Source of the DNA: Porpolomopsis calyptriformis
Lineage: Eukaryota > Basidiomycota > Agaricomycetes > Agaricales > Hygrophoraceae
DNA length: 64,000 nt
NCBI GenBank assembly: GCA_951640195.1
Contig: OX621175.1
Span: 1,476,470 to 1,540,469 of the forward strand
Reading direction: 5' to 3'
This document shows, one piece after another, positions 31,312-60,180 of this stretch (within the stretch, counting starts at the first letter, position 1; each line of letters starts with the position of its first letter). Under the pieces are notes generated by a model that did not search any database, was not told where the DNA came from, and saw only the letters and a list, made by a program, of their open reading frames with translations. A program made the position numbers and the translations under genes.

Positions 31312-32690
31312 CACATCAGGGACCCATTATCAACAAAATGACCAAAATGCTGGCACAAAATTAATTCAAAATTCTTTGGGGGATTATTAGGGCATCCCAA
31401 TACAATCAGTTTTTAATTTACTAACCCATAAATTAAAAAAATCGGCGGTCCCATTCTTGAGATATATGTAAAATACTCCATTTATACCATTATGCAGCCC
31501 AGCTATTGTATTGCACTCTATAAATCGCAATTTCATATCCATTCGATAGGCACAGTGAACTAATGGTGAGCCCACCAAAAATTCCGATTTTTAGAGCATT
31601 TGGTATGTCGTGGTGGAAGATGGTAAGGTTTTAGGAGGAAGTATAAGTATAAGTAGCTATAGACTGCTCTAAAAATCAGGGTTTTATATTCAATCGATAG
31701 CCCCAGTGTCATAGAGGTGGGGAATACAACAATCCCGATTTATGGACCATTTGGGGTACCGCAATCAGTTATATAAGGGGTATGGGGGGGGGATATCTCC
31801 AACTTATCACAGAGGTCCTTAAAAATCAGGATTTCATGTTCAATTGATAGCGCTAGTGTCACAGATACTGGGAATACAAAAATCCTGATTTATAGACCAT
31901 TTGGGGTACCGCAATAAGCTATATAAGGGGTATGGAGGGGTATATCTCCAACTTATCACAGAGGTCTTTAAAAATCGGGATTTCATGTTCAATCGATAGC
32001 AGTAGTGTCATAGAGGCTCGGAATAACAAAATCCTGATTTATAGGCAGAATAAGGTACCGCAATAAGCCATATAAGGGGTATGGGGGGTATATCTCCAAC
32101 TTATCACAGAGCTCTTTAAAAATCTGGGTTTTATATTCAATTAATAGCCCCAGTGTCATAGAGGTGGGGAATACAAAATTCCTGAGTTACAGACTATTTG
32201 GGGTACTGCAATCAGTTATATAAGGGGTATGGGAGGGGTATATCTCCAACTTATTACAGACATCTTTAAACATTACAATTTCATGTTCAATCAATAGCAC
32301 CAGTGTCGTAGATGCTTGGAATAACAATATATGGATAGAATAAGGTACTCTAATAAGTTATATAAAGGGTATGAGGGACTATATCTCCAACTTATCACAG
32401 ACCTCTTTAAACATCACAATTTCATGTTCAATCAATAGCACCAGTGTGATAGATGCTTGGAATAACAATATATGGACAGAATAAGGCACTGCAATAAGCT
32501 ATATAAGGGGTATGGGGGAGTATATCTCCAACTTATCACAGACCTCTTTAAACATCACAATTTTATGTTCAAACAATAGCACCAGTGTTATAGATGCTCG
32601 GAATGACAATATATGGATAGAATGAGGCACAGCAATAAACTATATAAGGGGTATGGGGGGGTATATCTCTAACTTATCACAGAGCTCTTT
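31312..32690 (+). repeat. Left terminal inverted repeat with 7-unit subterminal array
   Basis: The outer 340 bp are unique to the two ends. From about 31,660 the sequence becomes a tandem array whose landmark TCTCCAACTTATCACAGA occurs near 31801, 31950, 32098, 32248, 32389, 32530 and 32671. Spacing is 149 bp for the first units and 141 bp for the last three. Each unit contains TATATAAGGGGTATGG, a Pu-rich AAAATC block and CAATCGATAGC-like words. Confidence 0.9.
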
Positions 32691-32691
32691 A

Positions 32692-33001
32692 CAGCTGTTT
32701 GCACATGGCTTGACACACTTTTCCGCGGATTTGAAAAAAGAAAAGAGTCGACTCAGTGCTGTTATGACTGATTATTAATCATTTAAATACAACTGTTAGG
32801 CTGTTGTACCAAGATCAGGCTTAATGGCAACCTCAAGCTTGTCGGAAGACGATTCAATGTCACCAGGATCAAGCACACTGTTGGGTGGTACCATTAAGGT
32901 GATGAGCAATGTTAAGAGTTACAGTAAGAGATTGTACAAGTTATGGCTGGTTGACTTTTCTTAAATCTCCGGACAAGTGTCAAGCCATGTGCAAACGGCT
33001 G
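32692..33001. mobile_element. 310-bp MITE with 25-bp inverted ends and TA duplication
   Basis: The left end CAGCTGTTTGCACATGGC is matched in inverted orientation at the right end with a single mismatch over 25 bases. A TA dinucleotide lies directly outside each end (32690-32691 and 33002-33003), as expected for Tc1/mariner-type insertion. The interior has no long frame, so it is non-autonomous. It sits at the inner edge of the left subterminal array. Confidence 0.8.
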
Positions 33002-34622
33002 TAATCCTAATCTACCTGTAGTTAAATGGAATCGGATCATCTATTTACTCGGCTCGACTGGCCTGGGTCTCTTTCGTCTGACTACCAGAGTCTACTGCTG
33101 GTTACCTGAGTTGAGCTCACGCCACGTTGAGTCGACCAAGTTGAACGGTGTTGTCACTACCCGCCTCTGAAACACAGTGACTGGCACTTCGTAGAGAGTT
33201 TGTTGAACTCTATTTCGGGGACCGCCTTGTGACAGTCACCTCACATGGGTGTGACAGTCACTCGACTGGTCGGGTGACAGTCACTCAACTCACGTGGGTG
33301 TGACTCTATATTAGAACCAGTCAACTGCTTCCTGCACAGCGTATTTCTCGAAAATATGACAAGGGCAAATATGGGCAGATTTGTGTAAATTCTGAGACAT
33401 GACCACAATTTGATAAGAACTTGCTGCATCAGGAATACAGTATAACTGGAGCACATTCCCGTCAATACAAAATATGACGAGAAGAATATATCCCAGCTGA
33501 GGGAGTAAGCATTTTCTGGCATGCGTAACCTCATTAATGGACGCGCCCATAGTGACGCGTATACCAGGTATTGCCCTTGGAATACCTCTCGGTGCTGACT
33601 GGTCATGCCTGCCGATATCCCACACTGATACGAACCAAAATATACCTTAGATGCACCAGATTGGTGAACTTCCTTGTTTGACGGTGGTGACACTGGTACA
33701 TGATTGGATGAGCATCAGTTCTCCGTAGATATTGGTCCGTGCACCTGTACATAAATACTCGTCGTTACCTTGTACTTCCTCACGTGTTTGCCTCACGAGC
33801 TCAACGAGGTCCAAGCCGTTCCAACACATGATACCATATTCCTTTTGTTCTTTCACAATGTTGATAGTTTCCGCAAGGAGTGCCATCCGATATCATTGAA
33901 CAGCGTAAATTACAAGATATGTCTACCAGGACCTGAGGTCAAGGTCTTAACTGATGAGATCTCCTCCAAGCGTCGCAGGAGTGGTTGACGGTGTAGGCCC
34001 ATTCCAGGCCTCTCTAGAATGACAGTGTGAAGATCTACAGCCTCTGTAAGCCTGTTAAGCCTCCACCGAGACCAGAAATCATAATGATGATTCTCATTAA
34101 TCCAGCAGGGTATCCCTTACATGCAGATCACCGAGTCACATATATATGGTTGCACTCCCAAGCAACTACCAACATATACGTCATTTTCCTGATGTAATGT
34201 GAGGAGGGAGTGCTGTACCACTGAAAGGATTCATGCCTCGATGGGCACGGCAGGCAGCACGTTGAGCGAAAAGTAGTACACGGTCGTTCGTATTGCCATT
34301 CGAGTCTTCCAGATTCATCACTGCCAGGACTAGTTAGTTCTATATTACTATACACAACCAACTCTGCAACTTTGTTCGCAGCCTTATAAGTGGGTTGTCC
34401 CAGGGCTTTGGCTCACGCAGTGAGTTTCATGAGTTGTGTCGTGATTTGATTTAATCGACAGGCAAACGAAGGCTGCAAGAAGTGAAGTAAAGTGAACTGG
34501 TGGCTAGTCCTATAAGGATTTCTAGGAAACCCCGAAGCCTCACATAGAGTCGCTTTGTGAGGTGAGTGTTTATGTGTGGGTTCCGTTAGTGTACGCGAAT
34601 CAACTTAAGCTGGAATTAAGGA
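33002..34622. other. Non-coding left interior of the giant element, with iterons
   Basis: Three copies of the palindromic word GTGACAGTCAC lie at 33229, 33251 and 33274, two of them followed by CTCAC(A/G)TGGGTGTGAC-like sequence. Some minus-strand frames between 33,240 and 33,890 look weakly coding (for example NGLDLVELVRQTREEVQGND), but I could not build a gene. Confidence 0.5.
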
Positions 34623-36230
34623 ATGGCTGAAGTTTTCGCCAACGATGAAAGCCTCTGGAATCAGTCGACAACCCCCCCCATTAGCAAGTTCACTAAATGG
34701 ACCTTTGGACGTAATTTCATCTGGATAGGCACGATATGCTGCGAATTGCATGATGATGGCCTCCCAGCATTCGAGCTTGCGCTCTTTGATGCGCACTACA
34801 TGTATTGGCATACAAGTGCTACTGGCCAGTACAGCCATAACTACAACTACCACACTCGGTTGCGTGCTGCCATAGAGGACTACTTCAAGGGGGTGAAGGG
34901 GCATAATTTGCGCTCGCCTGAAGTCCTCACCCCATGGCTATGGCGAACATTCTGTGGATGCACCCATATCCCAGAGGGCCGCAATGACTTTATGGAACTC
35001 ATTAAGAGATATGGTGCCTGGAAGGATGAAGGCATGCCTGCACCCTCTCTGGACGGTGAGTGTAATGAGATATTTATTCACGCTTCGATTTTAATTTTAA
35101 TTGACACGCAGAGTGGGAAAGGGCTTTAAAAACCCCCAGTGTCCAGCTTTATCTGCCCAGGTGGCTAGAAATTTCAAAAGACCACCTAGGCTTCCCAGAG
35201 AAAAAGACAAGACTTTACGCCTGGCAATTCCATGTGTTTTTGTGAGCATGCCCAAGCAGTACTATTGCAGCTGGTAAGACATTGCGTTTTCTCTGCTTGT
35301 TGAAGACTAACTATTTGGTGTAAAAGAGGCAAACAAACCATTGAAATTTGTCGACACCCCGATCTATGCCTTTTTCTCCAAGGAAGAGCGTTCCACGATG
35401 CCTTGGATACGTCTGCTTGCAGACCCATCCTTGGTATGCCCACGCTCCACCTCCCTCGTTGACCACAAAGCTCTACAAAAGCTTAACCCAGGCGCCAAAT
35501 TGGATGACTCTATCCTAGGCTCATACATCGATCTCTGTCGGGCTCAGAATAAGGATAAAGAAGTAAAACTGATATCGACATATTTCTGGCCTCAGGTATC
35601 AAACCTAGACCACAAGGATTATGGTGGCACAACAAGGTTGCTCTCTGCAGAGTTGGTAAGCCCTTTTCCCAAACGTTTCCTTCCTTCCATCGATCTAACA
35701 GGTTACCAAGAATGGCCAAAAGGTCAAACGTGGATGGTATGCAGCTGCTTTGTCCTCCATCAATGAGACGTTGGAAACCTTGAAGTCCCTTTATATCCCC
35801 GTAAACCAAAACCAAAATCACTGGCTGCTGCTGAGGATGAACTTCACGGATCGACGCTGGGAGTTCTATGATAGTATGACTGCATGCAGAAATGCGAAGA
35901 CCCGGGCAGGCATTATTAAAGTGAGATTTTCAAGCCACAGAGTTCCTGATTAAATGCTGACAGGTGTCGAAAAAGGCTGTCAGCGATTATCTCACCACTG
36001 AGGTGAATTATAATCTCTCTGGGTGGAATTGCGAAACAGATATGTCTGTGCCGCAACAAAAAGGGTCCACAGATTGCGGGGTGTATACCTGTCAATATCT
36101 CAAGTGGCTGGTCAATGGTATGGCTATACCTTCAGTTTTGGAAGAGGCTGATGTTGCTGATTTTCGGAATATGATGATCATGGAGCTGGTTTCTGGGAAG
36201 CTTAGGATTGGCGATCGCAAGGAATCTTAA
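34623..36230 (+). CDS. Ulp1/SENP-like C48 cysteine protease
   Basis: C48 proteases remove SUMO or related modifiers from proteins, usually in the nucleus. Exons are 34623-35055, 35112-35273, 35329-35655, 35702-35920 and 35964-36230. The C-terminal half has the Ulp1 fold signature: KLDDSILGSYIDLC near its start, His in NQNHWLLL (codon 35819), Asp in WEFYDS (35870), Gln in VPQQKGSTDCGVY and the nucleophile Cys (36075). The roughly 200-residue N-terminal part (FIWIGTICCELHDDGLPAFE, TPWLWRTFCGCTHIPEGRND) is unknown to me. Exon 2 carries one base too many in a five-T run at about 35237. Removing it would give HVFCEHAQAVLLQL and restore phase; as written, a TGA follows. This may be a sequencing artefact or a recent mutation. 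Ulp1 domains recur in large fungal and algal DNA transposons. Confidence 0.75.
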
Positions 36231-36549
36231 TATACACTCACTGTACTATTCACCTGGTTTTTGTCTGAAGATGGGGTAGCTTTATTAGCTGTAATAGCAT
36301 TCAGCATTCGTTCAGCATTCATTCAGCATTCGTTCATTCAGCCATTCTATTCATTTGTGCATCGCAACCTTGTCTTCATTTCATCATTTCCTCAACATAC
36401 TTATGAAAGTTGTGCATGGCACCTTTGGCAATGAGGGCGTGTATGCCTTTGAACATTCTCTTCATGAAAACCAACTCATCGTTGTCCTCAAACATAGTGA
36501 AATTTGCCAAGTCTTGTCGCTTTTTCTACTCCATCACCAGATTCTTGAT
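36231..36549. other. Convergent intergenic gap with short tandem words
   Basis: This interval separates the 3' ends of the Ulp1-like and AT-hook genes. It contains a small tandem array of TTCAGCATTCG-like words at 36298-36345. No gene is seen. Confidence 0.5.
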
Positions 36550-38382
36550 CTAGTCAGAAAAATGGATGGATGCAATACCCCCATATTCGACAGAAAGACA
36601 TACCATGTCTACATCAAAGTGTGACAAATCGACCCATATGCCTTTCTTGTCGTATCCTTTCGTTGCATCCGATAGATCAAGGAGGTGGGTTGCGAGGTCA
36701 TCTGCATTACCGCTGAGTGGCTGAAGGAGCAATTTCACCCAACGTGGGATGGGTTCTGGTTCTAGCTTATCGTGACCATCATCCACGACCTAGAAGAAAA
36801 AGGATGGCTACCGTCACCATCTATCTGGACTTGTACTCCGAATGACTCGAATGCAAGCCTGATACCCACCAGAGTGGTGTCTGTAGCGTGCCCCTTCCCC
36901 TTCGTATCCTAGGAGACATACATATAAGCATACACGAGGCACATGATGGGGAAAATACTATACCCTTTTCCTTTTCTCAACCTCTATTTCTGGATCCAGA
37001 CCTACAAGCAGGCTTTCGGATAGATTTCGATTTCGATTTTTCTGGACAAATTCTTGGATAAATCGCCATTGCTTCTGACTAGGTATGAAGAAGATAAGAC
37101 CCACCTGCTGAGGGTGATTCACAGATGGTATAGCTGAGGAGGGTATACACCTTGCCAATGAGGGCTGCTTAGGGCGTCTTACCTGTACAAATCATTCAAA
37201 TACAAACATAAAACTACAAACAAACCTGGAAGTCCTTGCCAGGAGAAGCAGGTAGTGACTTTGCTGAGACGCCTGCTTCTGCTTCTGGTTTTGTATTCGC
37301 TTGAATTCTCTGTGTATGGTGAATATGACGCCATTGAAAAATAACATAGTCGGTACCTTTCTCATGGCCTTTTTTCTGGGGACATCACCCCCCGTTAATG
37401 CAGGGAGGGTCTGAAAGAAATCCATAGGGCAAGATGCAACCCTCTCTCCACTCCTCAGAATCCGTGCTTTGGGGAAATCATTAGATAATTCAACATGCTT
37501 GTCCTTGCATGGGCGTCCTCGCTTCCTTTTTGGAGCTCATGAAATTAATTGAATGATAAGTACTTAACAAGCTATTGAATTGACATCAGGATCACACACC
37601 TTCACCTTCACCCTCACCTTGATCGTTATCATCTTGTTCATATTCGTGTTCGTGTTCATACCCAGGTCCAAGTTCAAGCTCAGGTACACACTCAAGTTCC
37701 ACGGAGGAGATCGCGACAGCCTCCAAACGATTGGTGAACCCAAATAAGATGCAGTCTGCTTCGAAACCGTCAAGCCAGGTGGTGCAATTCGATCGGTCAC
37801 TGAAAGGATCAACGGATTTTAGGACTTGGGGAAGCCAGTAGAATTCTTTGCTCTGCTTCCAGGATAAAAGGTCTGGGTATACAAGCATTTATTACTCAAG
37901 CCTAGCCTTGAAAATATCGATATCTTACCATACCACCAGTGTTGTCTGGAAGAATAATGGCTTCTAAGCTCGGCTTCGAATGCTTTGAGTTTTTTGGGCT
38001 GGTGGGCCTTCCCTAGCTCCAGTCGAACACAGAACCGATGAACGACATCAGGAATCCAAAGACTGCCAGACGCAGGCTTTTCTCTTTGCGCTTCCTTTAT
38101 GATATACGTCCTAAGCATGTCATACCATACCATCAACTTTCCAAGATGACTCCCTCCATCCTCTTTTTGAAATTGCAGCTGAAGCTGGCACAAGTCAATG
38201 ATGGTGAATATTGGCCTCCACTTTATCGGGAGAGAACAAATATGTTGGGCCGCTTGGACTGACATGAGTCCATCCTGGGTGGTGTTTTTGATATAGCATC
38301 GTGAGGATAGCGGAACCGTGGCCTGCGGGACCTTTCCAACAGGCCACCAGCTAGTTTCGAGAGCATGCAAATCAGTCTCCAT
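36550..38382 (-). CDS. AT-hook protein of unknown function, eight exons
   Basis: Exons 38382-37929, 37872-37600, 37535-37357, 37309-37226, 37182-37105, 37041-36964, 36908-36837 and 36789-36550 keep phase throughout and give 485 residues with no internal stop. The N-terminal 240 residues look globular and Trp-rich (LETSWWPVGKVP, GSLWIPDVVHRFCVRL). An acidic run follows (EHEHEYEQDDNDQGEGEGE), then APKRKRGRPCKDKHVE, an AT-hook core GRP flanked by basic residues, which binds the minor groove of AT-rich DNA. The C-terminus ends with EPIPRWVKLLLQPL and VDLSHFDVDMVCLSVE. I do not recognise the family. An AT-hook product encoded inside an element with AT-rich repeat arrays could plausibly bind them, but that is inference. 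Convergent with the Ulp1-like gene. Confidence 0.7.
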
Positions 38383-39040
38383 GGATTTTATCAAGAGATT
38401 TAGCAAGATGCACTAAAGTGATCGGGGCAAGTATGGTTTGTTTGTCGAGATTTATCAGCTACACCTGCTATACTTCACTGCATATACCGTATTGAGTCGA
38501 TGGAGCTGTAGATTGAGCTAAAAAGTAGAGGACAACTGTGGAATAACACTGCGCCATTCGATCCTGATCCTGCCACCTTCTTCTACCTGCCCTTCTCCCT
38601 TGCGTTCACTTAGAGGCCTGGCTGAAATAAATGCATTCCGTTTGAAGCAAAGGTGGGAGAGCAGTCTAACAGAGTTTCAGTGTACTCCTCTGAACCGAAC
38701 CGCTCTGTTCCGAACAGAGTGTACTTGGTTAAAAGGTGGTGATACATTGTGGTGCAGTGAAGCTAAGAGGCAAGAACTAGGCCGACCGAAGGTGAACGGT
38801 AACATAGCGCTGTGTAGCACTGACTAACTGCATGACGCATGCAGCGTTCGCTGATAGGACATGAACCTACCGCGGTCTGAGAATTAAGGGGCGAGAAAAC
38901 CAAGCCAATCGACAGTGAGCGTGGGCAGAGCTCGTTTGCCATAAGCCACAATAATCGTGGCATCCACACTATAAAATCCCCTCATTTTTTCTCGACCCCA
39001 ATTCTCCACTTTCTCCCTAAGCCACCACCCACCATCCATC
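38383..39040. other. Intergenic, divergent spacer
   Basis: This is the shared upstream region of the AT-hook gene and the plus-strand F-box copy. I see no supported gene or repeat in it. Confidence 0.4.
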
Positions 39041-39784
39041 ATGATCCTCCTTCCCCTAGAGCTGTGGTTCAAAATAATCTCCCACATTCAGGACAGGCCC
39101 AGGGATCTACTCGCACTATCCCTAGTGAATAGGGATGTTTCCTCCGCTGTGTTGCCCTCCCTGGCCTGATATGCCATCGTCAATCCATTGCCACAGCCGC
39201 GACACCCTATCCACCTTGTTGAGTTCACCGCCATTTCGGAGTGGGGCGGCGATTTGGTTCAGGAACATCTGGAGATGGCCGGGAGTAACCTGTGGGTCGC
39301 CAGGTTGGGATTCGATGCCTCCGGATGTCAGTGTTTTAGTTTATTCCTATATGTCTAGGCTTTATCACTAATCCCGCATAAAGATGACTGCCTAGAACTC
39401 GAGCGGTTAAGCTTTTCCCGCAACTTATACCTCAGGGAAGTTACCCTCTCTGGATTACGACTAAAAATGCCGGGTCACTACGACACAATCGATATCTCGA
39501 GAATATTTGCTGGATGTCTGATGAGTGCTTTGACCAAGTTCACTCTGGATCTTACATGGGCCAACCTGGATAACTGCGTCAATGTCAATTGGGCCCTCCT
39601 CGACGCATATCTTTCCTCGAGACCTTCCCTTCAATCTGTGCACATTTTAGGCCCTCTGTTTGTAATAGAGGTCAACGATATCATGCCACTGATTGGCACC
39701 AAGGGCATCCTTAGGGTGACATCCATGCCAACCCTGCCGGAACCATCGGTACCATGGCCATCCCTATCGTGGGTGGGTATGTAA
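39041..39784 (+). pseudogene. F-box protein copy, inactivated
   Basis: From the ATG the product reads MILLPLELWFKIISHIQDRP and RDLLALSLVNRD, an N-terminal F-box that would recruit an SCF ubiquitin ligase, followed by a leucine-rich body (VTLSGLRLKMPG, TKFTLDLTWANLDN). Exons 39041-39326 and 39384-39784 have the same first-exon length (286 bp) as the paralogue at 40561-41364. A TGA at 39167-39169 sits where the paralogue has CGA (FLARYML against SLA-stop-YAI), a single C-to-T change at a CpG. A second apparent stop near 39358 falls inside the intron. Everything else remains alignable, so the loss is recent. Confidence 0.8.
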
Positions 39785-40089
39785 GCGAGGCAGGAAGAAG
39801 TTTTGAAGAAGGAAGGGTAGTGGAAGGGGGCAGGATACGGGTTGAATGGGAATGTGGTGACGTTATCCTGTAGCCATCTGTTGCAATGGATCGTGTATGA
39901 TGACCCTGCCTGATACTGATGAGTCCGGATTGGAAGATATCGTCCTCTTGAGACGACCCAAGCCCAAGGCGGAGAACACAGAGAGAGATCATTGTCATTG
40001 TTGCTGCATCTGTGTCTACTTTTTATATGTATACGACATCGAAGGGGTCTAACCTACAAAGCGAAGCGCTTTGTGATCCTTTGATAGCA

Positions 40090-40380
40090 CGATATTACTG
40101 AGAAGAAAGATTGTTGGATTGCGCAGCGGCTGCAAGTAATATCGAACTGTTGCTTTTGTCACCCACGCAGATTCGCCCTGCCATTTCCCATCGGAGAGAT
40201 CCCTAAAGCTAAATATGTAGCAACTCGTGCTGCAAAGGAAGCCTTATGGCTCCGCACCTTTATTGGTGAAGTATTTGGCCCAATCCCGTCTCAACTATCT
40301 TTTCAAACAACCAATCAGCTATCGTGCTATCAAAGGATCACAAAGCCCTGACCCCTTTGATGTCGCATACATATAAAAAG
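40090..40380 (+). mobile_element. Ty1/Copia retrotransposon remnant (RNase H end)
   Basis: The plus strand reads AKYVATRAAKEALWLRTFIG followed by EVFGPI, then QSAIVLSKDHKAL in a shifted frame. This is the C-terminal RNase H region of Copia polyproteins (AEYVAA..AKEALWLR...DNQSAI.L). Only about 60-70 codons survive and the frame is broken. The remnant forms the centre of the F-box inverted duplication, and part of it lies inside both arms. Confidence 0.75.
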
Positions 40381-40560
40381 TAGACACAGATGCAAATGTA
40401 TATAGTAACAATGACAACGATCTCTCTCTGTGTTCTCTGACTTCGGCTTGGGTAGTCTCAAGAGGACAATATCTTCCACTTCGGACTGGTCAGTATCAGC
40501 CAGGGTCATAACGGATCCATTTCAACAGATTGTTACAGGATAACATTGCCCCGTTCCTAT

Positions 40561-41364
40561 TCAACCTGTATCCTGCCCCGTTCCACTCCCCTTCCTTCTT
40601 CGAAACTTCCTCCTACGTATCCGCCCAGATATAGATGGCCATGGTACCAATGGTACCGATGGTTCCGGCAAAGTTGGCCTGAACGTGACATCAAGGATGC
40701 CCTTCGCGGTGACCAGTGGCATGATATCGTTGACCTCCATCACAGACAGAGGGCCTAAAATGTGCACAGATTGAAGGGAAGGTCTCGAGGAAAGATATGC
40801 GTCGAGGAGGGCCCAATTGACTTTGATGCAGTTATCCCAGTTGGCCCGTGTAAGATCGAGAGTGAACTTGGTCAAATCTTCCATAGAACATCCAGCAAAT
40901 ATCCTCGAGATATCAATTAGGTTGATGTTACCCGGCTGTCTTAGTCGTAATCCAGAGAGGGTAACTTCCCTGAGCCACACGTTGTGGAAAAGGTTTAGGT
41001 GCGTGAGTTCGACGCAGTCATCTTCATGCAGGGTTAGCGATAAAACCCAGACACATAGGAATAACCTGAAACACTGACAACCGGACGTATTGAATCCCAA
41101 CCTGGTAACCCTCAGGTTGCTCCCAGCCCTCTTCAAATTTTGCTGAACCCAACCGCCGTGCCAATTCCTGATGGAGGTGAATTCAAGGAAACGAATCGGG
41201 TGTTGCGGCTTTGGCATTGGATCGACAAGCATGTATCGGGCCAGGAATGGAAACACAACGGAGGCAAAGTTCCTGTTTACTAGTGCCAGTGCAAGCAGAT
41301 CTTGGGACGAGTTCTGAATGTAGGGGATAATTTTGAGCCACAGATCTATGGGAAGGGAAATCAT
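40561..41364 (-). CDS. F-box protein, likely intact copy
   Basis: From ATG 41364 the product reads MISLPIDLWLKIIPYIQNSS followed by QDLLALALVNRNFASVVFPF, a typical F-box, then a leucine-rich body with REVTLSGLRLRQPGNINLID and TKFTLDLTRANWDNC. The best model joins 41364-41079 and 41021-40561 (248 residues). The unspliced frame is also open, so the intron is inferred from the paralogue, where the same segment contains a stop. F-box proteins of this LRR-like type are greatly expanded in mushrooms and act as substrate receptors of SCF ubiquitin ligases. An upstream in-frame ATG at 41442 is less likely, because the paralogue starts at the equivalent of 41364. Confidence 0.75.
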   Translation of the reverse strand: MISLPIDLWLKIIPYIQNSSQDLLALALVNRNFASVVFPFLARYMLVDPMPKPQHPIRFLEFTSIRNWHGGWVQQNLKRAGSNLRVTRLGFNTSGCQCFRLFLCVWVLSLTLHEDDCVELTHLNLFHNVWLREVTLSGLRLRQPGNINLIDISRIFAGCSMEDLTKFTLDLTRANWDNCIKVNWALLDAYLSSRPSLQSVHILGPLSVMEVNDIMPLVTAKGILDVTFRPTLPEPSVPLVPWPSISGRIRRRKFRRRKGSGTGQDTG

Positions 41365-41479
41365 GATGGATGATGGTGGTTTTGGGAGACTTTCAGCTGC
41401 TCTATATACTAAGTCGACCTTGACGCTTTGACTCACTCTCAACTAAAATCGATTATTCACGTGGCTAGGGTCGCTTAAA
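41365..41479. promoter_or_regulatory. Compact bidirectional promoter with CACGTG
   Basis: Only 115 bp separate the divergent starts of the F-box gene and the small basic protein gene. It contains GATTATTCACGTGG, with the palindrome CACGTG (bHLH-type site) at 41458-41463. The same pairing of GATTATTC and CACGTG occurs in the divergent promoter at 52426-52554. Confidence 0.5.
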
Positions 41480-41946
41480 ATGCCACAGTTTGACAGGGTG
41501 AACCTGAACGGTCCTCTACTACGACCATCTCCAGCAGTCTTCTTCATGACTGTGTCCGCGTCGCCTCACTTGGCCACTAGATCTCAATCTCAGAGGGTTA
41601 CAACCTCAGACCAGATGGAGGGTGAGGGAAACCCCATGGGACCAGGATCTGCAGGGAATCAAAGTCACGCTGCCCAACATCACCAGGTGAGCTTGCTCTT
41701 TTCCTTTTTTTCAGGTTGACAGAGGGGACGTGTTAGGCGAATGAGATGAACATCCCCAAAGCTGTCAGCCCGAGAAGAAGAAAGCAATGGAAGGCCAAAT
41801 TTTTGTCGGATGAGGAAACTGAAGAAACACTACCGACCGTCTATGTCAATTCAAAGAACACGAAGATGACAACCATAGCAGAGCCGTCGGTAAACACCCA
41901 GTCGACAACGGATGGCGATGGCAAGATAGCCGAAGAGATCCAGTAA
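41480..41946 (+). CDS. Small basic protein of unknown function
   Basis: Exons 41480-41686 and 41737-41946 join in phase 0 (donor GTGAGC, acceptor GTTAG) to give 138 residues. The sequence is low in hydrophobics, Ser/Thr-rich, with a basic patch SPRRRKQWKAKF followed by an acidic tail EETEETLP and GDGKIAEEIQ. It is probably disordered. It shares a short bidirectional promoter with the F-box gene. No family is recognised, and the gene may not be real if the splice pair is coincidental. Confidence 0.45.
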
Positions 41947-44717: not shown

Positions 44718-45050
44718 TAGCTTCAAGGGTGTAGCGCATCTGCTGGGCCAAACACTAACCGCAAGTACAACGTGGGGCTCTATCTCCCTAAGGGATAGGG
44801 AGTCCAGAAGCTGCCACCTTTCTGTATATGTAAATAAAGCAGATTGTGTTCGGCATATCTACTAGGTTACATGAGGTTGTAATTGGTTTCATCGCAGGCA
44901 AGGTAATGTATGTATTCATGTATGTTTTTTTTTTTTTTTCACGTGAGACATGAGCATCAAAGTCCAACTCAATTGTATCGATTGTAAAACTGTAACAAAG
45001 TACAGGCATATGATAGCAGCACATCAATAGATAATGAATAGAAACTGTCC
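44718..45050. other. Convergent intergenic gap
   Basis: This gap separates the 3' ends of HSFGH family gene 1 and the HSFGH-JmjC gene. It contains a poly-T run at about 44,923-44,939 and a CACGTG at 44940. No gene is seen. Confidence 0.5.
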
Positions 45051-49302: not shown

Positions 49303-49836
49303 TTGGTTCCAAGGGTAGTTACATTTGGGGGTGGGTGGATAACTGCATGAAAACAAGATAATCAGCATAAAATTTATCTAGATGTGGTGAAAAAATAAGC
49401 ATTCATTCAATCGCATGCGTATAGCCATTGTGGTGCTGGAAGTAGTTTCGTGTGTGAGTCACAGCTCTTGATCACTACTTAGGCTCCTCACACATCACTT
49501 CATAGCACATCACTTCATAAGTACATAACAGCTAGTTGATATTCACGCATACACAGACAAGATAGCTGGGAGTTAATCAATACAGTATCAAAGCAACTTG
49601 ATATGTTATGCGTGACATCACATTTGCATACCAAAATGGGATGGGAGTGGCGCATGTGAACTTGCTAATTTACACCTGCACACAGCTCAACATGTCTACA
49701 CAGGTTTAGCACAAATCGTATGTAGTAGACTTATATAGTAACTAGCTTGGAATGCAGCAATACAAGTTGATTAATATTTGTGGAAAGTTTGATGCGACAT
49801 GCATGCAGCGTAATAGATGCTAATTCAGTAATTTTA
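49303..49836. other. Intergenic, AT-rich
   Basis: Short direct repeats (CACATCACTTCATA twice near 49,490-49,520) are present. I see no gene or RNA. Confidence 0.4.
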
Positions 49837-50987
49837 TCAAGACCATAACCTCCATGATGGTCTGTAGTTAAGCTTTCTGTCTCCATAGAGAACCTGAACC
49901 TGAGTGTGGTTGCTTTCGAGCATTTCACCTGACGCAATCATCTCCTCCATCCTTTTCAATGCCAACCGTGCAAACTCTTCACAGTCCATGTCTATCCAAG
50001 CGTCGAATATACCAGCCCACGTAGCTGTGTTTGTAAAGGTATTATTGAGATATATAACTTGAGGCGATGCTTGTAAACTGGATTTGGGGGAATTTTTTGC
50101 TAAGATTCTAGCGGACTGCTTGATAAAGTCAGTAGTACCCTTCACTTTCAAGCTAGTGCCAACCACAAGGAGAAGATCTAGTTGGCGACTGGGGGTGGTA
50201 GTTAACCCAAGATCATTTTGCTGCACGTTTGCTATTTCTTCTCCTCGAGGATGTGGTTCTCCGTAAAGAATGATATTGGGTCGGAGTCGAGGCACAGTCG
50301 TTCTGCGTTTGCCCTGCTCTACCCTCTTTTCCATATTGATTTGACATTCAGTGCATTCTGGTAGTTGGCCCTCTTTCAAAGAGGGGTAGTATGGTTCGAG
50401 GATAAAAATGGAGGAGCAGCCAGGGCATCGTAGTTCCTCTAGGGATCCATGCAATGGAATGCATCGGGCTGGTCCATCACTGGGGTGAATTTCTGAGGAC
50501 ATATGTAACCCAGCCTTGAGCTCCAAACCATCGATATTTTGAGTGTAAACATGGAGTAACACTCCTTGGAGGTCTAGAGCACAAAGGAAATGGTGGAAGG
50601 CAGTGGGTTGTGCGATCGCCGCTTTCTCAGCAAGGGTGGCAATGAGCTGACAATGCAGTGATTGTTGCTTTTGGGTCTAGAACATTAACTTGGTCAACTA
50701 ATCCTCACTTGAACATATATTTCTCACTACGAGGGATGAGCTAGTAAGCAGATCAGTCAGGTTGACTCCGGTAAATCCAGATAGTGCGTTGCCAGTATAT
50801 AAGCCATCTGGTCCTCTAAAACATGGAATACCTGCAGCCACGGATATTCCTGCTCCTAGAGAGTAGGTAAGTATTTGAATGAAACATGATGATGGGTCGA
50901 TTTACCACAGAGCACGACGATTCTCTTTGCTTTCAGTATTCCATCCATTAGATCTGTTGCACTTTGTTTTATAGTGGAGGGGAACAT
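49837..50987 (-). CDS. Sirtuin (Sir2-type NAD-dependent deacylase)
   Basis: Exons 50987-50906, 50855-50731 and 50676-49837 keep phase and encode 348 residues. Sirtuin motifs are complete: CGAGISVAAGIPCFRGPDGL (NAD loop, residues 27 onward), VYTQNIDGLE (114-118 TQNID), catalytic His in PLHGSLEELRCPGC (about 145), zinc cysteines RCPGC (153, 156) and PECTEC (177, 180), and LLLVVGTSLKVKG. NAD-dependent deacetylases of this type act on histones and other proteins and commonly enforce silencing. The chain has no long N-terminal targeting extension. It follows the BAH-PHD gene on the same strand with only 72 bp between that gene's stop codon and this ATG, which suggests a shared or read-through transcript. 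Presence inside a repeat-bounded element is unusual. Confidence 0.92.
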
Positions 50988-51059
50988 AATAGCTGAGTTT
51001 TTAGCAGTAACACGGTGAAGGATAGTAGGTATTAGATAAGCTAGAAGAATGGTAAGGTA

Positions 51060-52425
51060 TCAAATAAGCAAATCTGAGCTACACCGAGGGCAAGTATAGT
51101 ATGTTTGGTCTGTAACGACTAATGGCTCATAAGAGTCTGTGTTATCTATGCCGAATTCTGCCTCAAGCCAGTTTTCCCAGTCAGTGTCTATCATATTTAA
51201 CCGAGACTCCTCAATGAGGTGAGCAGCTATCCATCCAGAGGCTTGGACAACACTGCATTCCTGTGAAGAAAGCAACTTTCTAGCCTTGTTCACGATCCTA
51301 ATATTTCCGGCTGTAAAATAAGTGAGACCTCCCCTAGCTGTGGGTTGGAAAGCAACTTGAAGTATAATTTTTGGGGTGTCGGCAAACTTCTCTATAGCAT
51401 AGAGATTGTTAAGATACTGCTGCTGGGTAATGTTGGCAGGGGTTCCTAGGCAAGTAAGATGGGACCATCTTTTGCAGGACCAGCAGTAGCGTTGTTCCTC
51501 TGTATCGGGGGACCAAAGTGAATAACAGTGAGTTGCGCCACATATTTCTGGCTCGCCCTACCACCCAATAGATTACTACAGGGTATATGTTTAGTTCAAT
51601 GAATGCACCTTCAATGCCTGCCTATGCCCATCCCAGAAGTATCTAATAGAAATTTTAGTATAATAGATGGGTTGGTATTATCGTCAAGCTTACCGCATGT
51701 AATACGCGGTTACTGGAGGTTGATCTTTGATCTGATTTTTAATAATAACAATGTCGATTGTATCTACAGTTTAATTTTCAGTTCAGTTCAGTTCATTCTT
51801 TTATATCTGCTTCTCGATATAATAACCCTCACCTTCCAAGGCTTGCGCATCAATGATATCTGTAGAATCAGAGCCACACAGCTCTTGCTTTCCAAATGTG
51901 TTTATATACCTGTCAAGAGTAAGAAGAACATAGAGTGACAGGAGAAGGAGTAGGTTTTGAGATGCAACCTTTTAGTATCAGCCTTAACATCACTTCTCTC
52001 CAACAACTGCTTGGCTGTATACATCCATGAAACCTTAGCAAGATACTTGTTCTAAAGCACATTGTCAACATTGGGTAGGGTAGCTTGAGCAGGTGTATCA
52101 CCTTAGTAGTTTTTCTTATTTGTAGGATCAAACCTTTCCAGTAGTCATCCATTATAATATTATTTTCTTCCTTTGCATGGAGGCCAAGGTGACGGATGAG
52201 GCAGCTGTGTTTGAGGGAAATAATCAAATGACTACTATTCAAGCATTATCGATAAACACTTACAAGTCATTCTTAACGAATTTGCAAGGAGAGCCTATAA
52301 AGTTTTGATTCGGAACAAATAGAACAAGGCATAGGTGATATCTCACCATCATTTGGATTAGGAACCTCGAGGTATTCTACGACTTTTGCAGATTTCCATT
52401 GTTTTTCCTCGGTTGTAGGTGCCAT
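51060..52425 (-). CDS. BAH-PHD chromatin reader
   Basis: Eight exons (52425-52347, 52294-52264, 52204-52102, 52051-51969, 51909-51833, 51763-51694, 51642-51609, 51557-51060) splice in phase to 324 residues. The BAH domain occupies roughly residues 15-150, with VKNDFCLIRHLGLHAKEENN, the strand YLAKVSWMYTAKQLLE, and FGKQELCGSDSTDIIDAQAL. Then a PHD-type zinc cluster follows: PEICGATHCYSLWS, then YCWSCKRWSHLTCLG. The end EPLVVTDQTYYTCPRCSSDL adds another Cys pair. BAH and PHD modules read nucleosome or histone-tail states. The gene is expressed toward the adjacent sirtuin, and its start lies 130 bp from the divergent start of the 1,540-residue gene. Exon sizes down to 31 and 34 bp are unusually small. 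Confidence 0.85.
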
Positions 52426-52554
52426 AATAATAAATCTACGGACCAATGTTGATTATTCGTATTATATTCCCACAGCTATATATATGTCACGTGAATGTAG
52501 ATACACTTTGTCTCGACTATTGCACAAACATAGCTCTCGATCTTAACCTCCAAT
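52426..52554. promoter_or_regulatory. 130-bp bidirectional promoter
   Basis: It separates the BAH-PHD ATG (minus) from the ATG of the 1,540-residue gene (plus). It contains GATTATTC near 52451, a TATA-like run GCTATATATATG at 52475-52486, and the palindrome CACGTG at 52488-52493. Such a short divergent spacer implies that both genes are switched together. Confidence 0.55.
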
Positions 52555-55500
52555 ATGGCAAACCAGGCAAATGAAGGTGCAGATTATGACAGTGATATAG
52601 ATAGGATCATAGCTATGTCCTCACTAGCCAAGGTAAGCCTATCCCTAGTAGTTATGTATCTAATTCGATTCACACAATTAAATCATTACGAGGCTAATAA
52701 AACCATAATAAACCAGGAAGGGGATTCGACTTCTAGTGGTTCAGATGATAGTGATATACGTAATATCCTGAATATGCCTTGTGCAGAGAAGATGCCAATG
52801 CCAATACCGATGCTAGGAGAAAAACATATGCCTTCCAAAAAACATATATTAATCAACAAAAAGCCAGTATACTCAGTAAGTGTATATCTGTTTTCAAGGT
52901 TAAAGTGCTCACATTATTACAGACAACGTTAATTAGCCTAAATCATCTTAACATCCAGAATTCGGATCAGCAATATATATCGATACCTCCATTGGCTCCC
53001 TTAGGTCCCCAGCCAGGTCCTTCAAGGGTCCAAAACGCAATAAGTAGAAAGGATAATGACGCTGTATGTCTCAATTAACCTATGACAATAATAACTTACA
53101 TTTATTTATTTTCCAGGTGGCGAAAGCATGGTATGTATTTTAAGAGAAATCATAAGATACTTGCGTATTAATACTGGTTAGGTTTAGTGATTATAGCTCT
53201 CCTTCAGAGCCTTCGGTGGATATTAGAAGGAACAACTCGCGATTTGAAACCAGACACCGGTGAATAAATCTATCATTCGAAATGTTAGGTTAAATACTAA
53301 ACTTTTAGAAGCTCAACAAGCCGATCATCGTCGCCAGCTAGCAATAACGGATCAGATTTCATTGGATCCAGTGAAAGTGACAGCGCTCATTCTCATTTAC
53401 TAGCAAAAAATGCCATTCGATTGAATCTACCACGATCTGAGCAAGAGCTTTTTATAGGTATGTTCTTATATTATTGGTGGTGATTAGACTCATTAAGGAT
53501 ATTAGACACGAAGCTAGCAGATCCAAGGATATGGGCTTCAGCTTGTCAATCATTGGGATCTGCTAAGCCTGGAAACCACCTGGATCACGCGGTCATAGAA
53601 ATTTACCTTTTGAAATCATGGTATATGTCCATTCAACCCCAGATGCCATCTCAGAGATATTCCTACTATCTAGACTCGGAAACGGTGAGCAGGGTAATAA
53701 GAGAAGAAGAAGACATCCTGTCTACCGAAATCCATAAAACTCTCCTTCTTCCACCTCACATTGCTATCCCGAAAAAGCCTGTGTTATTTTTCCCTCCACT
53801 ATCATGGCAATCTTCTGCAACCCAAAGGCTAGCTTTATTTGATTACCAGCAGGAGAAGGTTCTTGTTTTTAGCCATGGAGCTCCACTCGAAACCAATATG
53901 TACTCAGATTGGACGGAGTGGAATGGCAACTACTATTGGAGGGCTATTGCTAATGTGTTTGGGTGGATCCTGGGTAGTGAGTTGGATGAGCGAGGTCCCC
54001 AAGTAATCGAACCGAATTGGAATACGGTGAAAATCTCGTTTCTATACAGAAGAAGCATATTCATATACATATTTCAACAGAGTGAGGCTGACACTGGTTC
54101 CTGGATGGCATCGCTTTGCCAAGAAATCTTTGATAATGGCTGGATGTACTCCACAGACATTAACCAACACCCACTTGCACCCAAATTGCAATGTGTTCAT
54201 GCGATGCGAGAGAGAATATTTCTCACTGCGCTTCAAACTGTACAAAAATCATATGACTTCTGGAACAAGACTCAGACCCTGCTTCGGTATTCCATGGAAC
54301 CCAATTCTGAGGTTGTGAATGATATGAAGGCTGGGCTTTTAAAATTCAAGCGTTTCGAGGTAATAGCACTTGCGCTTGCAACTGCTCGTATGAAGTGTGA
54401 GTATTATCTCATTCCGATTACCTGTGATAATCAATCTAAAGAGGCTACCTATATTAATCAACTAGGCCATCTTCTGGATAGTCACGACAAGGATGGCAAT
54501 GCCAGCAATGACGACAACAATCACAATGATGATGACAATGACAATGACAATGATGACAACGATGATGATTCCATTGTAATCAACCTACCACCTCAGCCTT
54601 CCAGAAGGTCTCTACCTGAAATCCAACTTCCAGAGGTTGAGCTAAATGGGAATGGGGGTGAAGAAGCATTAGCAACAAGCGTTGATGAGCGGCCTTTTGA
54701 TGACTACGAATCAGCTATGTTGGTTTGCTCCGAGGATCAAGCTGATATCATTCCAAACACGTGGACCTTTGACACCAATGGAATGCTTGTATTGGGCAAG
54801 CACTGGAGTATCTGGAGGGATAGAGGCTATAGGTTGCAGGCCGATTTTTTCTCTATGTTCAATAACCAGGAACCGGTTCTCCTCAATGACCACCTTCTTC
54901 CACACTGGGATTCAAGTGATCAAGCAAGTGGATGTTTACCATCATCTCCAGTTGCATACCCATCCTCGTTATCTTCTCATTCTTCTGAGGTGCCGAATTC
55001 CCTACCAGCTATGGACAACCCAGATGTGACTATGATGGGTGCTCAGGATATGTTGGATGAGGCGGGAGGGGTGGAAGGGACATCAGAGAGCCAGGGTGTG
55101 TTTGTAAAAGGTAAAGCACGCAACAACAAATTCATCTACTTCGACTTGGAGAAGGATAGAGTAAACCTGGACGATGAAGAAGTGTCAGTGTCGGTGGATA
55201 TCAACAGCGTCATATGGGTCACGCATAAACCACAGTTCATTGGTCCAATCAATATTCACCTTCTTCCACTGTTAGATGACAAACCTCCATTCTCTGTCAA
55301 CAATCATGTCTATGTCCAGGTTCTACAACCACCTACCACTCGAAATCCTAGGCAGAGGTCTAAAAGGTATCCACTTAGTGCCTTGCCACATACCCATTTC
55401 GGGCAGATGGGTCAAGGATCAGGCCAATTTAACACCTACGTCTTCTTCCCTCGTATGATTAGGAAAGACCCAGGAACACATAGAATGACTACTCTGATGC

Positions 55501-57592
55501 CAAGGGAGGTACAGGAGTTGTGGTTCTCACAAGTGATCATGCCTGCTCTGCCAGTGGTTTTAGCCAACTACACCGGAATTATGGAGTATCTTCCTACAAG
55601 CGTCAGTAATCTCCAATGGAAAATAGGGACAAGACGTACGACCAAGACCATTCCCCTCACACCTGAAGCATTTTCTTCCATGCGAACCACTCTCTGCGAC
55701 ATCATAAATAACCAGCCCGATCTCCTAGGCCGATTCGGGTCCTTTTTCTTTGTTGTAGATGCTCGAGGTATCAAACTGCTCTCTAAGCAGCACCACCCAA
55801 CCGAGAATATATATCAGGCACTCTGTTCAATGATTCCTAACATGGACTGGGATTATATGAAGGACCGATCGCATGGAGAACTCTTGCTTGATCTTGGGAT
55901 TTCATACCATCCTCCTTCTAGGGAGGATCAGGAGCCATTGGTAGGGCTGTGGAGGTTAGATAGGATCGACGACTCGTACGACCTTATGGGGATGAAAAAA
56001 GGAATGACCCATTATACTGCCATGTTTGGAGCTTATGGAGGGAGACAGGCTGAAACCAAGTTGAAGAAAAGTCGGCTTGTACACCTTTGCTTCCGATCCA
56101 GCTACAACCTTTGCTTTGAGGTGGTGCGACTTCCTGGCCAAACGAACTACCTATGTGATGACTGTGATGCAGTCAAGACAAATGACCGATTCATGACTAG
56201 CTGTGATCACTGGAAAAAGCTGTTTCAATCTTCTCAAATCCAGTCATTCGGCGTTAGAGAAGAAGTTAGAGGGAGTGGGTTAGCCATTATAAAGCTTCTT
56301 GATGTAGCATCTGAAAAGGTAAGCAGCGAAATAACTGCAAACTAGAAATGTCTAATGATTGCCAGGCACAAGACTATATGTCGTCTGACCCTATCATTTG
56401 GATCAAGTCGAGCCTCTTTTTCAAGTTGTTGGCAAGAAGGCTAGCAGAGTTTCAAAACGTCCAACTACACCTTTCACGAAATCGACCAAGCAACTATGGA
56501 ATGATGGCTACGCTTATCATCCACCTGATTAAGCACACCATGGTCACGCCAAGGATAAAGCACACATTCTTGAATGATGTGTTGCGAGACCTTCGTTTCA
56601 GTTCGATAATGTGGAGGTTCGGAATGTTCTTTCTTCATGACCTCAAGTTGAAGAAAGGAGTGCTATCTCTAAGAGAACTACCGGAGGAGGATCCAGCTGA
56701 GGTTATCCAAGCGTATGGACAGTCCTTGAAGAAGCCACAGGCAACTCAAGCCAACCAGCCATATCACCTTATTCAAATGTATCAGCAAGATGCATGCCCT
56801 TGGGGTCCCGATCCATCTTGGTCAAGAATTCAGAAACTGTTGGAAACTGAGCCAGAGATTTTCCTTAGGGAATGGAGGTTGGATGATGACTGGGAAGCTC
56901 CTGAACTGCTTTACACAAAGCTGTTGTTTGTTGAGTTCACGCATCAGCTGTGGCTAAGTCTGGCAGAGCAGTTTGCATCAGCAGGTGTTTTACCCAAGCC
57001 AACCACAGTTCAGGAAGCAATGGAGACTTGGACGGTACCTGCGATTCAGCATATCATAGGCATTGACCATTGCCGATTCCTTCCTTCGAGCTGTGGCCTT
57101 AAAGGAAAGCTTCCTTTGAGTCACTCCCATGATCTATCATTTTCAGCACGTCGGGCAACCTTCTTCCCTGAACAAACTATCCAGATCCCAGAGAATTCAG
57201 TCTGGAAACCATACACCCAGCCTGGAGGATATATCTCCACTTACCACCAATATCTTGTGGATTGGGATATGGATGAAGGTGATCAGCTCTGCCGTGAATT
57301 GGACAATATATTTGGCCAGTTACAATGCCTTCCTGTAGGTGGCCTATCGAATAAAAAGGGGAAACAAGTCATATGGGGGATGAAATCAGGCAAGATCAAC
57401 TTTATTTCGAATTCAAAGTTCTATCGGATTGAAGAAATTGGGAAAGAGGTGGCTGCGCGTCCACGAACTCAGGTCCTAAAAAGGCCTCATGCTTCAAAGA
57501 ATATACTTCAGAGACGACTAGATGAAACCTTGGGGAGATCGATAAAACCACCTATTCGGAGCCGAAAGTCTGCCAAAATCTACCAAAAATGA
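52555..57592 (+). CDS. 1,540-residue unknown protein, candidate mobility factor
   Basis: Eight exons (52555-52632, 52717-52875, 52959-53063, 53117-53130, 53182-53259, 53309-53457, 53506-56318, 56366-57592) join in phase, including a 14-bp fourth exon. The N-terminal 190 residues are Ser/Asp-rich and disordered. A large globular region follows, with SDWTEWNGNYYWRAIANVFG, then a poly-Asp/Asn tract near residue 530, then conserved-looking blocks ELWFSQVIMPAL, GSFFFVVDARGIKLL and EPLVGLWRLDRIDDSYDLMG (about 1005) followed by HYTAMFGAYGGRQAE and FRSSYNLCFEVVRLPG. A Cys pair (YLCDDCDAVK) may bind zinc. I recall similar GLWRLD...YGG proteins as multicopy uncharacterised genes of mushrooms, but cannot name a function. 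No recognisable DDE, tyrosine recombinase or polymerase motif was found. It is the largest gene of the element and lies next to the right repeat array. Confidence 0.7.
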
Positions 57593-57922
57593 AAGCCTCC
57601 TGTGAGACAGAAAGCAGACAACAATCCTTCAGGTTCAGAGAGCGGGAAAGAGCAACAGGTTAGGGTTACTCGCTCAAAGGCCAAGGCTGCCCAGAAAGAC
57701 GAGGGAAGAAAGGGGGTGAGTGGTGTGCGGATAACTCGGTCAAGAATGAACGCTGCTAGGAAAGATGCGGAGAGAGAAGATTCAGGTTCAGGAAGACATA
57801 TAGTAGGTAGATCTCAGTCAAGAGTCAAGGCTGCTAGGGAACGGGCAGATTTAGAGTCTGATTCCGATTCCGATTCATTAGAGTACACAGATGAGCCAGG
57901 ATCAGAGCAATCTAGTAGCTAA
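57593..57922 (+). other. In-frame coding continuation after a TGA stop
   Basis: After TGA at 57590-57592 the same frame stays open for 109 codons to TAG at 57920. The sequence is basic and acidic by turns (RVTRSKAKAAQKDEG, RITRSRMNAARKDAE, SRVKAARERADLES, then DSDSDSLEYTDEPGS) and contains three related SR/K-A-A-(R/Q)K units. It looks like the true C-terminal tail cut off by a nonsense change, or a readthrough extension. Confidence 0.6.
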
Positions 57923-57949
57923 TGTATCGATTTGAAGATTATATATTCA

Positions 57950-60180
57950 CAGGTCTATTCTACCTATATGTGTTACACTGCTCATTGTGGTACCCCAATC
58001 AGTCTGCCCATGGGGATGTGGTTATTCTGGGATGTTATCACACTAATGCTATTGATTGAACATAACATGCTGATGGTTAGAGAGCTCGGTGAGAAGTTGA
58101 AGGTATAACCTCTGATACCTCTTACATGCTAATTACGGTACCCCAATTATTCCACACATGAGGATTGGACTACTCCTGATGTTTGTAGCACCAATGCTAT
58201 TGATTGAACATAAAATCCTGATGCTTAGAGGGCTCTCTGATAAGTTGAAGGTATACCCTCCCATACCTGTTGTATACTTATTGCGGCACCCTAGTTAATC
58301 CACACATGATGATTGAACTATTCCTAACCTTTGTAATACTCATGCTATTGATTGAACATAAAATCCTGATACTCGGAGAGCTCTGTGATAAGTTGAAGGT
58401 ATATCATCCGATACTTCTTACATACTATACCCCAATCATTCCACACATGAGGATTAGACTACTCCTGACCTTTGTAACACTAATGCTGTTGATTTAACAT
58501 AAAATCCCGATGATTAGAGAGCTCTCTGATAAGTTAAAGGTATACCACCCCATGATATCTTATATACTTATTGCGGCACCCTAGTCAATCCATACATGAG
58601 GATTAGACTATTCCCAATGTTTATAACACTGATGCTATTGATTGAACATGAAATCCTGATGCTCAGAGAGCTCTGTGATAACTTGAAGGTATACCCCCCC
58701 CTACCTCCTGTATACTTCTTGCGGCACCCCAGTCTATCTACACATGATGATTGGACTATTCCCAATGTTTGTAACACAGGTGCTATTGATTGAACATGAA
58801 ATCCTGATGCTCAGAGAGCTCTGTGATAAGTTAGAGATATACCCCCCTATACCCCTTATATAGCTTATTGCAGTGCCTCATTCTGTCCATATATTGTCAT
58901 TCCGAGCATCTGTAACACTGGTGCTATTGATTGAACATGAAATTGTGATGTTTAAAGAGGTCTGTGATAAGTTGGAGATATACTCCCCCATACCCCTTAT
59001 ATAGCTTATTGCAGTACCTCATTCTGACCATATATTGTTATTCCGAGCATCTATAACACTGGTGCTATTGATTGAACATGAAATTGTGATGTTTAAAGAG
59101 GTCTGTGATAAGTTGGAGATATACTCCCTCATACCCTTTATATACCTTATTGGAGTGCCTTATTCTACCCATATATTGTTATTCCGAGCATCTATGACAC
59201 TAGTGCTATTGATTGAACATGAAATTATGATGTTTAAAGATGTCTGTAATAAGTTGGAGATATACCCCCCCATACCCCTTATATAACTGATTGCGGTACC
59301 CCAAATAGTCTATAACTTAGGATTTTTGTATTCCCCACCTCTATGACACTGGGGCTATTGATTGAATATAAAACCCAGGTTTTTAAAGACCTCTGTAATA
59401 AGTTGGAGATATACCCCCCCATACCCCTTATATAGCTTATTGCGGTACCTTATTCTGCCTATACATCAGGATTTTGTTATTCCGAGCCTCTATGACACTA
59501 CTGCTATCGATTGAACATGAAATCCTGATTTTTAAGGAGCTCTGTGATAAGTTGGAGATATACCCCCCCATACCCCTTATATAGCTTATTGCGGTACCCC
59601 AAATGGTCTATAAATCAGGATTTTTGTATTCCCAGTATCTGTGACACTAGTGCTATCGATTGAACATAAAATCCTGATTTTTAAAGAGCTCTGTGATAAG
59701 TTGGAGATATACCCCCCCATACCCCTTATATCACTGATTGCGGTACCCCAAATGGTCCATAAATTGGGATTTTTGTATTCCCCACCTCTATGACACTGGG
59801 GCTATCGATTGAATATGAAACCCCGATTTTTAGAGCAGTCTATAGCTACTTATACTTATGCCTCCTCCTAAAACCTTACTATCTTCCACCACGACATACC
59901 AAATGCTCTAAAAATCGGAATTTTCTGTGGGCCCACCATTAGTTCACTGTGCCTATCGAATGGACATGAAATTGTGATTTATAGAGTGCAATACAATAGC
60001 TGGGCTGCATAATGGTATAAATGGAGTATTTTACATATATCTCAAGAATGGGACCGCCGATTTTTTTAATTTATGGCTTAAACTGATTGTATTGGGATGC
60101 CCTAACGATCCCCCAAAGAATTTTGAATTAATTTTGTGCCAGCATTTTGGTCATTTTGTTGATAATGGGTCCCTGATGTG
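57950..60180 (-). repeat. Right terminal inverted repeat with 12-unit subterminal array
   Basis: The complement of the left-end unit appears about twelve times. The landmark TCTGTGATAAGTTGGAG-like word lies near 58090, 58238, 58386, 58529, 58676, 58824, 58965, 59106, 59247, 59397, 59545 and 59695. Spacing alternates around 149 and 141 bp as on the left. The outer 340 bp (59842-60180) match 31312-31650 in inverted orientation. Confidence 0.9.

Follow-up and report, generated by a model that had tools for sequence, protein, structure and literature searches.

To our knowledge, the telomere-attaching mobile elements known so far are retroelements. HeT-A and TART of Drosophila are RNA-templated elements of a few kb which replace telomerase repeats and keep one constant end toward the centromere while the other end is eroded. 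Y' elements are subtelomeric and polymorphic. Here we describe a giant subtelomeric DNA element from one genome, that of Porpolomopsis calyptriformis (GCA_951640195.1; 33.5 Mb, 17 contigs, denoted here by C and a number), starting from a copy inside a stretch of 64,000 nt (OX621175.1, positions 1,476,470-1,540,469; hereafter the window). We believe, with a little more confidence than reserve, that this element spreads by one-ended transfer, in which the piece from the element end to the telomere is moved onto another chromosome arm.

Several described systems share single traits with this locus. Terminons of bdelloid rotifers are presented as giant, with many genes, in head-to-tail telomeric arrays with host genes between copies, and the RecQ helicase repeats of A. 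bisporus as subtelomeric and polymorphic. Helitrons are cleaved before TC and joined at AT, and flanking DNA can travel with them when the far end is bypassed (PMC4778049); the ends of FoHeli1 and FoHeli2 start with TCAG, and a repeat of the first 73 or 85 nt is seen in some FoHeli copies (PMC5148889). PlavakaB has the termini CATCA..TGATG and carries TET/JBP cargo in Agaricomycetes (Kojima). Further literature is found in PMC12730594, PMC7473861, PMC9674265 and PMC6431247.

Edges and inverted ends of the window copy

A sequence-only reading of the window had described inverted ends exact to the base, beginning with the ten letters CACATCAGGG, which are present at 31312-31321 (+) and 60171-60180 (-); these two matches compare with a shuffle mean of 0.26, and a count of two was reached in 3 of 100 shuffles. 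The inversion is real, with 94.8% identity over 1,378 bp and identical outermost 60 bp, a large share of this alignment consisting of 141-149-bp tandem sub-repeats (about seven at the left end, about 12 at the right). The first four letters, CACA, however, belong to the flank. The left edge lies in a dispersed long terminal repeat (LTR)-like repeat with a unit of about 200 bp and many copies at 96-98%, the tail of which forms host DNA at 31109-31315 (+). Four native copies of this repeat without the element read up to GCACATCCACAAG and continue with CACATCCACAAG; they contain CTTTTTTGCACATCCACAAG where the window has CTTTTTTGCACA joined to TCAGGGACCC, one of the four bearing an upstream substitution. 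Since the native copies also have CACA, these letters are host DNA, and since an 85% paralogue of the right host flank (60177-61327, +) on C11 resumes at 60177, the element is placed at 31316-60176.

The left (L) end at 31316-32691 (+) thus consists of TCAGGGACCC and the tandem sub-repeats, and the right (R) end at 58036-60176 (-) of TCAGGGACCC on the minus strand with its sub-repeats. The R end is the one found attached again and again elsewhere in the genome.

Attachment rule at the junctions

The terminal 20-mer (the TCAGGGACCC terminus, up to two mismatches allowed) was found 105 times in the genome, L and R together, and the reversed control pattern not once. Ten L-type ends were recognized among 40 scored of 104 candidates, and all ten share one junction in one repeat. 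R ends, unlike L ends, are joined to many unrelated flanks. Across the distinct 20-nt flanks read from both kinds of end, TCAGGG is preceded by A or T in 43 of 43 (p 1.7e-12), with C at position -2 in 27 of 43 (p 7e-6), where distinct flanks are not always independent and a few are interrelated.

Thirteen distinct junctions have an uninterrupted counterpart, defined as the flank found elsewhere without the element and 18 nt exact at the edge. All 13 continue with T and 11 of them with TC; one counterpart is the dispersed LTR-like repeat, and the other 12 are located in the element or its distal tail. Where R is joined into another copy, the distance from the element's own end is 57 or 115 bp in two cases and about 3.3, 29, 34, 34, 44, 47, 48 and 49 kb in eight, and two joins lie further out. 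New copies thus attach at whatever point an earlier copy has been cut.

Distribution and orientation in the genome

Among the ends listed, 93 of 100 are on C1-C14. The 84 ends there that fall outside the known L-type set have the element body toward the nearer contig end in 76 cases and lie within 400 kb of that end in 79. When each distinct R junction on C1-C14 is counted once, the body faces the nearer contig end in 34 of 39, and the junction is within 200 kb of this end in 29 (17% expected) and within 400 kb in 35 (34% expected). This orientation bias may partly reflect survival, because inward attachments would delete essential arms. Copies of the element take up many chromosome ends: pieces sampled at contig ends match the C16 element unit in 14 of 20 cases, two of them at the ends of C15.

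The R ends of C16 are spaced exactly 49,281 bp apart. Another tandem array, C5:33189-179739, holds six R ends at an exact spacing of 29,310 bp, a unit length unlike that of C16. Three ends (L087, L091 and L092) are short degenerate solo ends of about 145-194 bp with 89-94% identity to known ends, two of them non-conforming in orientation; to judge by their sequences, they are older relics of the family. In the sub-repeats at 31670-32691 and 58036-59751 of the window, G-runs (GGGGTATGGGGGGG) are found on the strand running inward from the TC end, and in copies with conforming orientation this polarity is that of the telomeric G-strand.

The far side of the attached copies

The number of scored matches declines outward from R, from 48 for the R-adjacent open reading frame (ORF) through 40 of 44 candidates some 27 kb away, both lower bounds, to 17 of 17 at about 47 kb. 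The last count comes from a 1-kb probe of the distal part, of which three matches are partial (1-905, 1-285 and 1-55). The first two of these end where an R end begins, and for none of the three is the rest of the probe listed on the same contig. The displaced part of the recipient was thus not found at the two junctions where the probe allowed it to be sought.

The telomere repeat of this genome is an irregular mix of TTAGG and TTAGGG. A 26-nt pattern of this mix, with up to three mismatches, was found only at six contig ends, shorter tracts being missed by it; no telomeric repeats were found at element junctions, either by this pattern or in the flanks read. On C6 and C7, telomere repeats abut the element body at the equivalents of C16:32263 and C16:27799. 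The last unit of C16 runs about 53 kb from R to the telomere, and its final 1 kb or so is unlike anything read.

The R end of C7 is joined to a flank of its own, and 12.15 kb of non-element DNA lies beyond the L end, up to the contig end. Two sampled pieces of this block are 99.9-100% identical to the left flank of the window, in the same register, and the same block is also present, at 89-93% identity and further out, on several contigs, where an L end is about 19-20 kb away. Given the flanking DNA carried on C7, the transferred piece seems to pass the second inverted end, unlike an ordinary two-ended transposon.

The two-exon gene adjacent to the R end

A two-exon gene next to the R end is our candidate for the mobility gene. 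Its large exon lies at 53484-56318 (+; the ORF P0001 minus its intron-borne tail), followed by a predicted 47-nt GT..AG intron at 56319-56365 (+) and by a second exon, the conserved ORF P0002, at 56366-57589 (+); the two exons joined encode about 1,350 amino acids. P0001 gave 48 scored matches of 75 candidates at 99-100%, hence at least 48, and 43 of them have no in-frame stop. The intron is present in all three copies read, and the intron-coded tail of P0001 is spanned by all 48 scored matches. A sense-strand intron kept in amplified copies points to spread via DNA and argues against an RNA intermediate. Six homologues of the protein were found, all hypothetical or unnamed. The gene may encode the enzyme that cuts the element end.

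A longer unit behind the window copy

Judging from its alignment with longer copies, the window copy derives by internal deletion from a unit of roughly 52 kb. Most of the copy's body (34329-60176) matches C16 at 99.4%, and the remaining L-side sequence (32692-34331) is matched by the long forms of C4 and C15 up to 34331, where these diverge and the window jumps. The deletion junction at 34329-34331 shows a 3-nt micro-homology, ACT. Among the ends listed there are nine inverted L-R pairs, three at about 28.8 kb (C13, C1 and C9) and six about 52 kb apart (C1, C4, C7, C15 and two on C9). No listed end pairs with the remaining one of the ten scored L ends, and most ends found have no partner end at a distance of about 28.9 kb. 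Along C15:46001-86000, the part of the 52-kb form toward R runs colinear with C16 apart from one inverted 17-kb segment, and the terminal stretch of about 15 kb on the L side differs.

The sequence-only reading is borne out in that this is a repeated unit and not a chance arrangement of a satellite. Its unit, a 28.9-kb element between inverted repeats, has to be given up, since the form of about 28.8 kb is a deletion derivative and most ends are unpaired at such a spacing. The chromatin cargo, which it had taken as the distinctive trait, also gives way to another feature as the striking one, namely one-ended attachment near chromosome ends.

One-ended transfer and its alternatives

The site-exact end, a target rule that equals the first bases of the element, the one-ended junctions, the telomere-ward orientation and the carried DNA together lead us to favour one-ended transfer. 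A nick or break would occur exactly at the element end, before TCAGGGACCC, and the freed end would attach to another chromosome arm, at an A/T^T(C) site. Everything from the end outward, telomere included, would be copied across, and the recipient's own distal arm would be lost. Repeated transfers, each cutting short the copy that came before, would build up head-to-tail arrays, and broken tips would be re-capped by telomere repeats.

We infer that an enzyme cuts at the element end and that copying proceeds either by rolling-circle run-off as in Helitrons or by break-induced replication. The Helitron-like route is considered because the end starts with TC and joins at W^T; here the strand starting with TC would be displaced and run off at the telomere, and its 5' end would then be joined to the target. 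In the route by break-induced replication, the enzyme would cut at the end and repair would copy outward. A bolder proposal, which we regard as rather doubtful, is a new class of mobile elements that move whole tips: a dedicated nickase, perhaps the R-adjacent protein, would open the TC end of a subtelomeric copy, the strand would run off at the natural telomere, and the 5' end would join a W^TC site on another arm, so that the chromosome end would serve as the missing second transposon end.

Several observations weigh against one-ended transfer. Five distinct R junctions face the wrong way (L012, which is the window copy, L070, L090, L091 and L092), and so do six of the nine placed L-type ends, only three of which conform in orientation. 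The single junction shared by the L ends is explained only if L rides with distal DNA or was attached once in the same manner. The third partial match of the distal probe (1-55, on C11) ends where no R end is listed, and an 85% diverged counterpart of the window's own right flank has C next, not T. T(C) is moreover common to target and element, so both bases could be micro-homology. The R-adjacent gene gave no Pfam family and no match to any known enzyme. No Helitron Rep gene travels with the element either, as the 35 genome matches of PF14214, compared by eye with the 48 P0001 copies, include none that recurs at a constant position next to them. Many contigs break off within the element, which indicates that the arrays are incompletely assembled, and all evidence comes from one genome and from sequence only.

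We consider it unlikely that the family is instead an ordinary two-ended DNA transposon with terminal inverted repeats, of the Plavaka, KDZ or CACTA kinds, which inserted near telomeres and whose copies later became more numerous and lost their second ends through exchange between chromosome ends. L and R are truly inverted repeats of each other and form nine pairs, and TET/JBP genes are also carried by such transposons, according to Kojima (section 3.2). Such an origin fits poorly with ten scored L ends on one junction against 39 distinct R junctions on C1-C14, or with the non-element DNA carried beyond L on C7. At the window edges, to which the comparison by eye was confined among the L-R pairs, no direct duplication was seen, and no DDE transposase domain was found in the ORFs scanned, the scan having covered part of the ORFs.

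Somewhat less probable still is an explanation without any mobility, in which a Y'-like subtelomeric repeat was spread by ectopic recombination and break-induced replication. The exact-length tandem arrays of C16 (49,281 bp) and C5 (29,310 bp) and the shared non-element segments do show much exchange, but homologous exchange does not yield 43 distinct flanks that meet the same element base with an A/T rule. Lastly, a telomeric retroelement like HeT-A or Terminons, added via the 3' end of an RNA, has the head-to-tail arrays near chromosome ends, the one constant and one variably truncated end and the precedent of giant multi-gene Terminons in its favour, but is already disfavoured and in our view very improbable given the retained sense-strand intron, the 26-nt telomere pattern at six contig ends and at no junction, and the lack of a reverse transcriptase in the ORFs scanned.

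Cargo genes and other features of the window

The sequence-only reading had listed a Ulp1-type protease, an AT-hook protein, an F-box protein, a JmjC-like oxygenase, a sirtuin and a BAH-PHD reader as cargo, and two of these are supported by Pfam matches. The sirtuin exon lies at 49840-50676 (-; PF02146, 8e-23), and a Ulp1/C48-type protease gene of several exons at 34620-36227 (+; PF02902, 4.2e-10 on exon 35961-36227), with a change of reading frame between its last two exons. The PHD-like exon at 51063-51557 (-; PF00628, 0.0037) and the F-box remained below the Pfam cut-offs, and BAH was recognized by eye only, as was the AT-hook-like KRKRGRP of an ORF at 37195-37536 (-), which has no match above the Pfam cut-off. 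The exons named JmjC-like (45054-46144, -) owe this name to a resemblance by eye, and a Pfam scan of 45683-46144, 45054-45383 and 45383-45655 gave no match. The F-box-like ORF contains the right arm of an inverted repeat pair at 39029-41376 (arms of 727 nt, 81%), a pair that is also found in C16.

Further out, the C16 body encodes an alpha-kinase (2.4e-8), TPR repeats and a TET/JBP-like oxygenase (8.6e-7, under the Pfam cut-off). On the L side of C15, there are a second weak TET/JBP-like ORF (0.0057) and a helix-turn-helix ORF of Tc1-like look. The TET/JBP-like ORFs, at L035:9376-9999 and L064:5484-5843, thus occur in two element forms, both under the Pfam cut-off. Two adjoining ORFs at L037:4217-6569 (C16:64217-66569) show a P-loop-like GSGKTR and a nuclease-like C-terminal look and appear CRN-like by eye; the pair has no Pfam match and an NCBIfam match only at chance level. 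An element that manages its own chromatin state would be in keeping with the presence of the sirtuin, Ulp1 and TET/JBP-like genes.

The interior had also been called AT-rich and unlike the flanks. This holds toward the left, where GC is about 0.49-0.53 against about 0.39-0.49 inside the element, and does not clearly hold for the right flank (60-64 kb), with about 0.46-0.48. The left flank also contains 75/33-bp tandem repeats at 16143-16433.

Comparison with known systems

If one-ended transfer is correct, the replacement of tips by a DNA element by means of one site-exact end would add a new mechanism for moving chromosome ends. It would account for fast subtelomere turnover in Porpolomopsis calyptriformis and would give a testable nick-site rule, CW^TC. 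The gene set is present in at least 48 near-identical copies, counted by the R-adjacent ORF, which would allow one to ask how a travelling set of sirtuin, Ulp1 and TET/JBP-like genes affects subtelomeric silencing.

The exclusion of Starships, Mavericks and Helitrons by the sequence-only reading agrees with our results, as none of their genes was found among the ORFs scanned. A Starship tyrosine recombinase and a Maverick/Polinton PolB and integrase had no Pfam match there, no dedicated search having been made for either. A fixed 3' end of the Helitron type was not seen either, in that the few copies read outward have no constant far end, with no systematic search made.

In the form of its junctions, the element resembles Helitron and Helitron2 (FoHeli, Helraiser), since its end starts with TC and joins beside A/T before T, and inverted repeats lie near the ends. 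Its self-junctions at 57 and 115 bp recall the repeated 5' termini of FoHeli, and its carried-along DNA recalls the bypass of the Helitron far end. Unlike Helitrons, it measures roughly 50 kb, lies near chromosome ends and has an inverted copy of the same end on its other side. The termini of PlavakaB resemble CATCAGGG at some element junctions, and TET/JBP-like cargo is common to both, but the CA before TCA is not fixed in our element, no duplication was seen, and no transposase was found in the ORFs scanned.

With Terminons the element shares its giant size, its many genes and the head-to-tail arrays near chromosome ends; Terminons, however, encode a reverse transcriptase and have telomeric repeats at their junctions, whereas the element keeps an intron and shows no such repeats at its junctions. 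As in HeT-A and TART, one end is constant and the other truncated, but here TTAGG/TTAGGG repeats cap the chromosome ends. What sets the element apart from Y' elements and RecQ helicase repeats is a site-exact end with a target rule.

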